From NCBI GenBank assembly GCA_949841325.1, contig CATKZK010000010.1, forward strand, positions 1 through 36,346: 36,346 bases of DNA, written 5' to 3'. The stretch's first letter is position 1. Each line of letters begins with the position of its first letter. The position numbers and the translations under genes are program-made. The stretch comes from an uncultured Bacilli bacterium (GTDB lineage Bacteria; Bacillota_I; Bacilli_A; RF39; UBA660). The notes below the pieces were generated by a model. It searched no databases and was not told the origin of the DNA. It saw nothing but the letters and a program-made list of their open reading frames with translations. This document shows, in pieces, positions 1 to 21,132 of this stretch.

Positions 1-6
1 TTCAAT

Positions 7-55
7 ATTATACTTTTTTTTTTTTTTTTTTAGCAACACCTAATTCATTTGTCAA
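7..55 (-). promoter_or_regulatory. Poly-A promoter-like element: TTGACA-N17-TA18-GTATAAT reading left out of the window
   Basis: Minus strand reads TTGACAAATGAATTAGGTGTTGCT(A)18GTATAAT; same architecture recurs at 20053-20103; lies just after a terminator. Confidence 0.5.
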
Positions 56-75
56 TACTTAAATGTTGTATTCAT

Positions 76-16930: not shown

Positions 16931-18178
16931 CTAGTCTTCTTTAATCAGTTCTTTAACCACACGTTTTGAAGCATTTCCATCATCTAAGTACGTATATTTA
17001 TTATTAAAGTCCTCATACTTTTTATCATATTTAAAATGTTCCATCTCTTTAATAGCCTTCACCAAGTCTTTTTCTTTTTCAACAATTGGTCCTGGTAATT
17101 CTTTAATATCAAAGTAGAAGTCCCTTAACTCATGTTGATACTCTTCTAAATCATACATGTAAAAGATCATTGGTCTTTTTAAAATAGAATAATCAAAGAA
17201 AACACTCGAATAATCTGTGATTAATAGATCCCCTAAGATATAAAGTTCATTGATATCATCATAATCTGAAACATTATAAATAAATCCTTCATACTTTTTA
17301 AAGTCAAAAGAATTCGCGACAAAATAATGTGCCCTAAAGAGAATAATGTATTCATCACTCAATTGTTCTCTTAAATAATCAAAATCAACTTCCGTCTTAT
17401 ATGTATAACCTATCCCTGATGTATGTTGATTATCACGCCATGTTGGTGCATAAAGAATAATCTTTTTATCCTTTGGTAAATTCAGTTCTTTTTTTACTCT
17501 TTCTACATCACTTTTTTTATAGTTGATGAGAAAGTCATTTCTCGGATATCCCTTTTCAATAACGATATGCTCTTTTCCTACTTTCCTTAGATTAAAAGCC
17601 GAAATAAATTTCTCTGTACAGAATTTTGAAGGAGATACCATATAAGAATACTTCTTTGAATCCACTTGATATTTATAACGGATATCTTTAAGTGAATTCA
17701 TGGCATTTCCACCCTTAACCTCGATATCAAATCCAAGTCTTTTAAGTGGAGTTCCATGCCAACATTGAATATAGACTTGGTTCTTTTTTTTAACTATTGT
17801 ATCAGGGACTCTCGAATTCGTTACCCAATATTTACTTGTCGCATAAAAGCGATAATAAGCAGCAGATCCATATTTAAGCACTTTTGTATTTCTATTCTTT
17901 TCTAAATGCTTATATTTACTTGGATCTTTAAAAAACCAAACAAATTCAAAGTCTTGATACTCATCACTTGTAAGCATATATTCATACATTGCTTTTGGAC
18001 TATCCACATACTTTCTTCCCATAAAAGCTTCAAAAAGTACACGTTTTTTCTTCACTGGTCTAATATAGAAAAAAAGGTAAATCATTCTATTTTTTACAAA
18101 GATACATCCTCTTAAGAGATGTCTAAAAAAGACATTTTTCTTTGATAAATTGACGAGCATTACTTTTAACTTGTTCAT
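16931..18178 (-). CDS. CDP-glycerol glycerophosphotransferase family protein (TagF/TarF-like)
   Basis: YIQCWHGTPLKRLGFD, LYAPTWRDNQ, LITDYSSVFFDYSIL. Confidence 0.92.
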   Translation of the reverse strand: MNKLKVMLVNLSKKNVFFRHLLRGCIFVKNRMIYLFFYIRPVKKKRVLFEAFMGRKYVDSPKAMYEYMLTSDEYQDFEFVWFFKDPSKYKHLEKNRNTKVLKYGSAAYYRFYATSKYWVTNSRVPDTIVKKKNQVYIQCWHGTPLKRLGFDIEVKGGNAMNSLKDIRYKYQVDSKKYSYMVSPSKFCTEKFISAFNLRKVGKEHIVIEKGYPRNDFLINYKKSDVERVKKELNLPKDKKIILYAPTWRDNQHTSGIGYTYKTEVDFDYLREQLSDEYIILFRAHYFVANSFDFKKYEGFIYNVSDYDDINELYILGDLLITDYSSVFFDYSILKRPMIFYMYDLEEYQHELRDFYFDIKELPGPIVEKEKDLVKAIKEMEHFKYDKKYEDFNNKYTYLDDGNASKRVVKELIKED

Positions 18179-19276
18179 TTATTTCACATCCTTTAAAATC
18201 GCATCCACTAATGCTTTAGTAGCACTTTCTTGTTCAACCACATATTTTTCTCTATAGGCTCTTAATACATTTCGATCATAATTTCCCTTATTAATTGTAT
18301 GAACTAAGGCTTCACTCTCTTTAAAGACATAGCCTTTTAAATCTTCATAGAGATTTGTATTAATTCCCTCTATTTTATTATACCTTTCTTCATCATAAAT
18401 ATAAAGCAAAACAGGTCTATTTAATATAGCTGCCTCGATAGAGATTGCAGAATAATCGGAAATGACGACATCAGCAATACTAAGCAATTCTAAGGAAGTA
18501 ACAGCATCATACGTATACTTTTTATCAACTATTATTTTCATTCGTGGATGAATCTTAATAATAAGTTTATAGTCACTTTCCTCAAAAGCTTGAATCAATT
18601 CATCTATTTTATATTCATCATAAGTACGAAATGTTGGCACATATAAAACTACTTTTTCTTTTTTTAATTCAGGATAGAGTTCATATACTTTTTTTCTATT
18701 TTCTTGTACTGTATGTTTTAAATAATCAACTCTTGGTAAACCACAAACGATAAATTTATCTTCTGGATAACCAAAAGCTTGACTGAAAAAGGGTCTCATG
18801 GCTTCAGAACTGCTCACAATTACATCATACTGTTTATGCATATTCATGATTTTAGCCCAACTTTGATCTCTTTTTGTATTTAAAGTTTGATAGCCAAACT
18901 TTTTGACTGCACCTAGAGAATGCCAAATCTGTACAATCTTAAGGCCCTTTTTATGGTGCACACAAGATATGGCCATTTGGTATCCATCGATAATGCAAAT
19001 TGATGCTTTCGCTAAATAAAAAAGTTGCACAAAGGGATGAAAGACATAACAAATAATCTGTATTACATTTGTCTTTTCCATGCGTTTCGTTAAAACCTTC
19101 ACCTGATATTTGGGATATCGTTTTCTCATATCTTCTATCATATACTGAAAATCAATAGATGCTTCATTTCCCTGTCTACTTAAAAATAAAACAAACTTTT
19201 CATTTCTTGGAATAATCTTAAAAAAGAAATTTACAATTTGTAAAGAAAGCTTATATATTCTAAGAAGTATGCTCAT
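18179..19276 (-). CDS. CDP-glycerol glycerophosphotransferase family protein (TagB-like)
   Basis: QIWHSLGAVKKFGYQ, YVPTFRTYDEY, VISDYSAISIEAAIL; AGGAGTG RBS supports ATG at 19276 (ORF track extends to 19309). Confidence 0.88.
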   Translation of the reverse strand: MSILLRIYKLSLQIVNFFFKIIPRNEKFVLFLSRQGNEASIDFQYMIEDMRKRYPKYQVKVLTKRMEKTNVIQIICYVFHPFVQLFYLAKASICIIDGYQMAISCVHHKKGLKIVQIWHSLGAVKKFGYQTLNTKRDQSWAKIMNMHKQYDVIVSSSEAMRPFFSQAFGYPEDKFIVCGLPRVDYLKHTVQENRKKVYELYPELKKEKVVLYVPTFRTYDEYKIDELIQAFEESDYKLIIKIHPRMKIIVDKKYTYDAVTSLELLSIADVVISDYSAISIEAAILNRPVLLYIYDEERYNKIEGINTNLYEDLKGYVFKESEALVHTINKGNYDRNVLRAYREKYVVEQESATKALVDAILKDVK

Positions 19277-19294
19277 GATATCACTCCTATATGC

Positions 19295-19323
19295 ATTATA
19301 ACAATTCAATAAATAACTTACAA
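19295..19323 (-). promoter_or_regulatory. Promoter upstream of the TagB/TagF-like pair
   Basis: TTGTAA-N17-TATAAT on the minus strand. Confidence 0.65.
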
Positions 19324-19327
19324 TGTT

Positions 19328-20007
19328 TTATCTAAATTTATGAATTTCTTGATCATATTCGTGTAATAAATCGGCATAATTCGACGTTGGATAACAATTT
19401 TCAACATCTGCGAGTAATCGATCTAACTCTTCATATTTTTTCTTACTATCGACAACCCATATGGCTATAGGTTCCCCTCTTTCTGCAAAGTATTCAAATA
19501 ATCTCTTTCCATGGTATCCACGAATTTCTTTTTATAAGTGATTGAAGGCTGAAGAAACTCCATCTAATCCATATAATGCTTTTTCTGTATCATCATAGCC
19601 AATAACTGGAAAACAAGGATATAAGCTATCTTCCTCTTTTATTGCCATTAGTGTATTTACATCTCGACCAATAAAAGTAATTGCTGTATTGGGATATTTC
19701 TTACATAAAGCCACTAATTCTTTTGCATATTTTCTACTTTCTGCTTTTTTCTCTTTTCCAAAGTTTGTCTTAATCTCAATAAAAAGAGGTTTCCCCTTTT
19801 TCGAGTTGAATCAAAGGCCTCCATCACATTTTCAAGAGTTTGATAATTCATAAGTACAAAACCTCCATCTTTTGTCTGCCTAATATCAATTTCAATCGCA
19901 TCAATATTTTGATGTTCTATAGAGGACTTTATCGCCTCTAAAGTGTTTTCTATACAAGGTTTTTCTATTACTCTTCCACGATGCGCTGTAAATTTTGGTT
20001 ATCTCAT
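19328..20007 (-). pseudogene. Decayed glycerophosphodiester phosphodiesterase
   Basis: Hand translation: M R * PKFTAHRG...ENTLEAI...DAIEIDIRQTKDGGFVLM, frameshift near 19795, then KPLFIEIKTNF...FNHL * KEIRGYHGKRLF...IAIWVVDS; GDPD motifs with two nonsense codons and a frameshift. Confidence 0.87.
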
Positions 20008-20052
20008 CCTATGTTCTCCTTTAAAGAGAATAAACCCATTCTCCCCATAGAA

Positions 20053-20103
20053 ATTGTACCATTTTTTTTTTTTTTTTTAGCAATCTCTAAATACATTGTC
20101 AAG
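20053..20103 (-). promoter_or_regulatory. Poly-A promoter-like element upstream of the GDPD pseudogene
   Basis: Minus strand TTGACAATGTATTTAGAGATTGCT(A)17TGGTACAAT; matches the element at 7-55. Confidence 0.55.
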
Positions 20104-20127
20104 ACCTCTTTTTACATTTTTTGACAT

Positions 20128-20151
20128 AAAAAAAGCAAATAACGACTTGCT
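20128..20151 (-). terminator. Terminator after GT2 gene at 20173
   Basis: AGCAA/TTGCT stem followed by a T-run on the minus strand. Confidence 0.6.
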
Positions 20152-20172
20152 ATTTATAAGAAAGAAATAAAA

Positions 20173-21132
20173 CTAACTCTTCTTTTTATTGCTCAATTCC
20201 TCTTTTGTAATATACAAAGGACGTTTTTTTGTCTCCATGTAAATACGGGCAATATATTCACCAATAATTCCTAAACAAAAGAGGATAAGACTTCCAATAA
20301 GCAACACAGTTACAATTAATGTTGGATATCCTGGAACATCAATTGTAAAGAATATTTTCTGTATGATAACGACAACTAAATAAAGGAAGCACAAAAGGGA
20401 AACTAGTAATCCTCCAAATGTCGCGATTCGCAAAGGAGCTACTGAAAATGAGATAATTCCTGATATTGCATAGAGGAATAATTTTTTTATACCAAAACTG
20501 CTTTTTCCATAAAGTCTACTTTCTGGTGTATATGGCATATAGTAAGTATTAAAACCTACCCAACTAAATATTCCTTTTGAAAAACGATTCGCTTCCTTTA
20601 GACTCAAAATAGATTCCACTACATATCGTCTAAACACACGAAAGTCACTAGCGCCATCTACTAACTCTACTTCAGATATTTTATTAATAAGGGCATAAAA
20701 CTTCTTCTTTAAATAAGTCATTGTTTTGTCTTCAATTCTTCTCTCTTGATAACAACAAACACAGTCATACTCTTCCTTTTTCTCTAAAACTTGAACCATC
20801 TCTACTAAAAGTTCAGGCTTTTGCTGTAAATCAGCATCAATAATACCTACATAATCCCCTGTTGCTCGTTCAAGACCTGCATACATGGCGGCCTCTTTAC
20901 CAAAATTTCTCGAAAAATGGAGAACTTCTATTTCAAAGTCTTGTTTCTTTAACAATTTCTTCAGTTCAACAATGGTCTTATCTGATGATCCATCATCAAT
21001 AAAAATAAGTTCTATGTTATAAGAAAGCACAGAAAAACATCTCTTAAAAGCTTTATAAAGAGGCTCAATACTTTTTTCCTCATTATAACATGGAATAATA
21101 ACACTTAACTTTTGTTTCTTCATGTTTTTCAC
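20173..21132 (-). CDS. GT2 glycosyltransferase with two C-terminal TM segments (GtrB/CsbB-like, polyprenyl-phosphate sugar synthase)
   Basis: SVIIPCYNEEKSI, FIDDGSSDKT, IDADLQQKPE, SDFRVFRR, C-terminal LGIIGEYIARIYMETKKRPLY. Confidence 0.93.
   Translation of the reverse strand: MKNMKKQKLSVIIPCYNEEKSIEPLYKAFKRCFSVLSYNIELIFIDDGSSDKTIVELKKLLKKQDFEIEVLHFSRNFGKEAAMYAGLERATGDYVGIIDADLQQKPELLVEMVQVLEKKEEYDCVCCYQERRIEDKTMTYLKKKFYALINKISEVELVDGASDFRVFRRYVVESILSLKEANRFSKGIFSWVGFNTYYMPYTPESRLYGKSSFGIKKLFLYAISGIISFSVAPLRIATFGGLLVSLLCFLYLVVVIIQKIFFTIDVPGYPTLIVTVLLIGSLILFCLGIIGEYIARIYMETKKRPLYITKEELSNKKKS

Follow-up and report, generated by a model that had tools for sequence, protein, structure and literature searches.

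The locus

The window, by which we mean the whole 36,346-nucleotide stretch of DNA analysed here, is contig C10 of a 1.34-Mb draft genome in 65 contigs (the host genome below) from an uncultured Bacilli bacterium. Near position 20,050 its minus strand carries a promoter-like element with a long A-tract, lying between a terminator-like hairpin and the remnant of a gene for a glycerophosphodiester phosphodiesterase (GDPD), and a second copy lies at the start of the window. The features are as follows.

20120..20155, minus strand: terminator-like hairpin and T-run after the glycosyltransferase gene at 20173-21132 (fold -6.5 kcal/mol, z -2.1)
20053..20102, minus strand: whole element, TTGACA-N13-TTGCT-A17-TGG-TACAAT as read in the sequence, the genome has 8 copies at 0-1 mismatches, this one included
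20097..20102, minus strand: TTGACA box, present in subtype a only and separated from the -10 by 38 nt
20083-20079, minus strand: TTGCT, 13 nt from TTGACA (20102-20097)
20078..20083, minus strand: TTGCTA, proposed -35-like hexamer, its last base being the A that opens the tract; TACAAT follows after a 19-bp spacer
20062..20078, minus strand: A17 homopolymer, the proposed slippage tract, as read in the sequence
20053..20061, minus strand: TGG-TACAAT, extended -10-like box (TGG 20061-20059, TACAAT 20058-20053)
19328..20007, minus strand: GDPD gene remnant, broken at codon 3, with later stops and a frameshift
18179-19309 and 16931-18178: a pair of CDP-glycerol glycerophosphotransferase genes (PF04464) that directly follow the GDPD remnant
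7..55, minus strand: second copy of the element (TTGACA 55-50, 13 nt, TTGCT 36-32, A18 31-14, G13, TATAAT 12-7)

The original prediction described the element as TTGACA-N17-TTGCTA and paired its TTGACA with a downstream TAyAAT, and neither assignment agrees with the sequence. The gap from TTGACA to TTGCT is 13 nt, a distance of 17 nt reaching only the TAAAAA where the tract begins, and in the copy at 20050 TTGACA and TACAAT lie 38 nt apart, so that the two do not form one sigma-A promoter and TTGACA is not the -35 of that -10. By analogy we infer that TTGCTA serves as the -35-like hexamer, a role taken by TGTACA in a second subtype described below, TTGCTA being taken as the -35 because in relatives it is a TTGACA that adjoins the tract. 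The spacer from TTGCTA to TATAAT in the copy at 1-60 is 18 bp, and the gene downstream of this copy is truncated by the contig end. It had also been proposed that both copies follow a terminator, which is plausible as both are preceded by hairpins (-6.5 and -13.4 kcal/mol) and then T-runs, although a stricter terminator scan of the window listed none near the 20050 copy.

A family of tract promoters in the host genome

The assembly contains 13 A-runs of at least 12 nt; 12 are 16-19 nt long, all in a promoter context, and the remaining one is an unrelated A12. Runs of 13-15 nt are absent from the assembly, and every run of at least 13 nt (n=12) lies within a tract-promoter element. A pattern search of the host genome found 8 sites that match TTGACA-N13-TTGCTAAAAA with 0-1 mismatches, most of which have TTAGGACTTGCT in common, and the two window copies are therefore diverged members of a family. 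The repeated switch-like element that had been described from two sites is supported by further copies genome-wide, and the motif is not confined to those two sites.

In total 25 tract promoters can be recognised in the host genome: 12 with A16-19, both window sites included, 13 with A4-9 and none with A10-15. They fall into two subtypes, a, to which the window copies belong, and b, which has the form CCAAAACATATGTAC-A(n)-TGRTACAAT, has no TTGACA and lies in the upstream regions of surface-protein paralogs; short-tract versions exist for both. Most copies have TGRTANAAT 3' of the tract. The hexamers TTGCTA and TGTACA each match a -35 at 4/6 positions and are thus weak, and the spacers between them and a -10 box such as TACAAT are 18-21 bp in the host. 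Two copies depart from this layout, one on contig C17 with no recognisable -35 hexamer and a further, naturally interrupted copy at C13:11667 (TTGCTT-A8-G-A7-G-TAGAAT) with a spacer of exactly 17 bp.

Several host contigs end in tract-promoter repeats (C10, C13, C21, C46, C56 and C7), as is expected because the 5' regions are near-identical. Just after the terminator T-run, upstream of most host tract promoters, there is also a direct repeat, TGTMAA-N4-6-TGTAYAA, which is absent from the copy at window 1-60. We take this repeat to resemble a WalR/YycF-type box (TGTWAH-N5-TGTWAH); such a box was set aside as an explanation of the repeat, given that it is missing from the 1-60 copy.

Genes downstream of the tracts

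Enrichment of surface proteins downstream had been put forward as the test of phase variation, and such enrichment is what we find, with 8 of the 12 long copies preceding members of one signal-peptide surface family (2 of these genes are truncated at contig ends). The other four long copies precede the GDPD remnant and a short disrupted membrane-type ORF (C12:25097), or run off their contigs (two copies). A profile of the N-termini (MKRKxILVLxIILMxIGFAAVSTTLFLNGNTN...DFDVYFSKA) gives 43 matches to the surface family in the host genome. In Pfam and NCBIfam scans the C-terminal parts vary, with DUF285/PARCEL repeats, a glycine-rich ALK/LTK-type domain or no assignment, and the N-terminal domain has no credible PDB or NCBIfam match. 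Approximately 14 paralogs appear by eye to have a different, tract-free promoter of the type TTGTAG-N17-TATAAT. The tract-free promoter shared by these paralogs (C30:14124, C37:6362, C44:3843, C52:7147 and others) is followed by a long conserved leader containing TTTGTCGAAAGACTTTATG.

Poly-G tracts in related genomes

Each genome compared represents one consensus per species, and most are draft MAGs. Among 9 genomes of the same genus the A-tract promoter pattern was found in the window species only. The surface family itself is shared with three congeners, all metagenome assemblies, in which the profile search gave 44 matches in G021 (uncultured Bacilli bacterium Lapin-005 bin82), 60 in G064 (uncultured Bacilli MGG24433) and 10 in G059 (Erysipelotrichales bacterium HAN091), and several congener promoters of this family have G8-10 in place of the A-tract. 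Tract lengths differ between paralogs, being A16-19 in 12/12 long copies of the host and G7-10 in relatives. G021 contains 63 poly-G tracts of 8-10 nt, and of the 41 family starts listed for it, 28 are preceded on the sense strand by G8-10, where 0.25 would be expected; these tracts sit 33-157 nt upstream of the starts, mostly at 43 or 55.

The sequence that follows the tract in G064 (AAATTATAGTAGGAAAGTA) differs from that of the host (AAATGATAGTAGGAAAGTA) by one mismatch in 19 nt, whilst shuffled sequences gave a mean of 10.6 and a maximum of 15. As these post-tract leaders match above shuffles, the promoters of G064 and the window species are probably homologous, those of G064 having G9 and those of the window species A6 or A17. 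For G021 and G059, the leader 3' of the tract was no more similar to that of the host than shuffled sequences were. The original prediction had attributed the divergent copies to selection on the layout rather than recent duplication; the first part gains from the finding that relatives keep a spacer homopolymer with G for A, whereas the shared TTAGGACTTGCT indicates that duplication has also been involved.

Three further features of the congeners can be recorded here. A second secreted family in G021 (MNMKKVILGILIGLSLSTISVVAISLCNAKDIEY...WDVDTV) lies under the same poly-G promoter as the surface family. The same genome has, by eye, poly-G9 tracts inside apparent acyltransferase-type coding regions, which would be translational phase variation. 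In the congener G062, poly-G tracts at contig ends (G062:C15:13061-13082 and C151:3935-3946) follow Illumina/Nextera adapter-like sequence and are an assembly artefact.

The poly-G promoters extend well beyond the genus. Across 145 genomes of the family, the order poly-G tract, -10-like box and start codon was counted 405 times and its reversed control 43 times, in 46 and 17 genomes respectively. Outside the window species, the equivalent poly-A pattern was found in one genome, at a single site that lacks a good -10 (TAGGCT). No other clear user of poly-A was seen. Of 30 poly-G sites, drawn almost entirely from different genera, 22 have a -35 matching at least 5/6 within 12 nt 5' of the tract; mononucleotide shuffles gave 2.6 with a maximum of 8. 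In 296 genomes of the class the pattern TTGAC-N0-12-G8-N0-9-TANNNT has approximately 263 forward matches and 2 in the control, counts which include overlapping registers per site and are to be read as a contrast and not as exact site numbers. In the poly-G relatives the homopolymer clearly lies between the -35 and the -10, boxes of TTGAC- and TATAAT-like form. At the 78 listed sites whose -10 is good the spacer averages 17.8 bp and falls within 15-19 bp at 62; spacers peak at 17-19. The starts downstream in relatives include, by eye, TasA/CalY-like, type IV pilin-like (GFTLIELL) and lipoprotein-like proteins, and the matches per genome, overlapping registers included, reach 58 (G087), 36 (G044) and 32 (G017).

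Proposed mechanism and alternative explanations

We give a probability of roughly 0.78 to the reading, drawn from sequence comparison, that the element is a phase-variable promoter in which slipped-strand changes alter the -35/-10 spacing and which mostly controls the surface family. The A17 tract would form the spacer between the -35-like TTGCTA and the extended -10 (TGGTACAAT), and slipped-strand mispairing at replication would add or remove A residues. Such gains and losses would move the spacer, which measures 18-21 bp in the copies as assembled, about its optimum of 17 bp, switching the downstream gene on or off among cells, and with about a dozen such promoters on one surface family each cell may present a random combination of surface proteins. 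The poly-A tracts are placed in a sigma-A spacer because of the probable poly-G homologues in G064 and by analogy in position, targets and the 18-21 bp range. In copies with short tracts (A4-9) the spacer would measure about 6-11 bp, and these copies would therefore be off, or dependent on the extended -10 alone. The 17-bp spacer of the interrupted copy speaks for this mechanism; the weakness of the -35 hexamers and the broken target of the 20050 copy speak against it. What this mechanism leaves unexplained is the distance at which TTGACA is conserved in subtype a; this upstream box may be an activator site or an ancestral box.

Because the two length classes, A4-9 and A16-19, lie about one helical turn apart, the main rival is that the tract is a variable spacer between a putative site for an activator upstream (TTGACA-N13-TTGCT or CCAAAACATATGTAC) and an extended -10 that depends on this activator, with helical phase as the switch. 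The activator site would then have the TGTMAA-N4-6-TGTAYAA repeat further up, and -35/-10 spacing would be irrelevant. Such an arrangement would suit the good conservation of both upstream boxes, neither of which is a good -35, and the extended -10 form of TGRTANAAT, but the tract adjoins a canonical TTGACA in most relatives, where spacers are close to 17, and the copy at 1-60 lacks the upstream repeat. It would therefore seem unlikely, though it deserves more weight than the other alternatives.

A much less probable suggestion is that TTGACA-N17-TAAAAA is itself the promoter and the A-tract is transcribed, expression being controlled by RNA polymerase slippage or by a poly-A leader. TTGACA and TAAAAA are indeed separated by exactly 17 nt, in the two window copies as in those of subtype a; against this, the tract and -10 are also present in subtype b, which has no TTGACA, TAAAAA does not have the final T of a -10, and many copies, as well as G064, conserve the -10-like box and leader AGTAGGAAAGTA 3' of the tract. 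It is equally hard to credit that the A-runs are neutral low complexity, or sequencing or assembly artefacts, spread by duplication of surface genes, for although the genome is A+T-rich, contigs end at the repeats and adapter-derived poly-G occurs at contig ends in G062, the runs of at least 13 nt are all in one context with none of 13-15 nt, many contigs agree, and relatives hold a homopolymer of another base at the same position with structured flanks (approximately 263 matches against 2).

Returning to phase variation through spacer length, a more tentative extension, which we hold somewhat less probable than its opposite, is that this regulon has changed its slippage base: an ancestral G8-10 spacer tract, which congeners and the class at large still use, would have been lost and replaced in one species by a poly-A about twice as long, so that switching was maintained, the A4-9 copies being either locked off or not yet expanded.

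Relation to known systems

The ON length of the vlp promoters of Mycoplasma hyorhinis is about 17 A. Every member of that multigene family has an A-tract in its promoter region and is turned ON or OFF through indels of A (PMC10502178), and the likeness to the present case is that of a promoter A-tract before the members of a multigene surface-protein family. The two differ in that the host here is an uncultured Bacilli bacterium, the copies are scattered over the genome, there are two tract-length classes and congeners use poly-G. The Pfam and NCBIfam scans identify DUF285/PARCEL and Gly-rich domains in the surface family and not Vlp. Promoters of the Neisseria porA/opc type have poly-G or poly-C between the -35 and -10, the length of which tunes transcription, in one or a few genes per genome. 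The poly-G promoters of the relatives match this layout, but some relatives have tens of pattern matches per genome. The tracts of the Campylobacter and Helicobacter phasomes are largely intragenic, whereas those of the host and its relatives lie in promoters. Those poly-G phasomes comprise many homopolymer-controlled surface genes per genome (PMC6321876, PMC2823697).

A literature search, with limited coverage of subscription journals, found no description of such promoters in RF39-like or other uncultured Bacilli. The mechanism is already known; what appears to be new is its scale, along with the G/A difference among congeners and the division into two length classes. Were our reading correct, a large group of uncultured Bacilli represented by metagenome assemblies only would diversify its surface by hypermutable promoters, as pathogens do. 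Homologous promoters with G and with A tracts would also offer a natural test of which property is selected, be it spacer length, mutation rate or base identity.

The GDPD remnant and its neighbours

The gene downstream of the 20050 copy had been called a broken GDPD gene, and this holds. Its leader contains AAGGAG and its ATG lies at 20007-20005 on the minus strand, the gene opening ATG-AGA-TAA with a stop at codon 3 and more stops after, whilst a 66-residue N-terminal piece is still recognised by Pfam (PF03009, E 7.5e-07). The further idea that the switch has outlived its target is possible, as GDPD is broken and the tract is still A17, but the evidence is one draft assembly and read-through into the genes downstream is an alternative. 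Either the loss of GDPD is recent, or the promoter at 20050 also feeds the glycerophosphotransferase genes behind it, although the gene at 18179-19309 has its own promoter-like TTGTAA-N17-TATAAT. The region 16931-19309 is part of a glycosyltransferase/teichoic-acid-type cluster.
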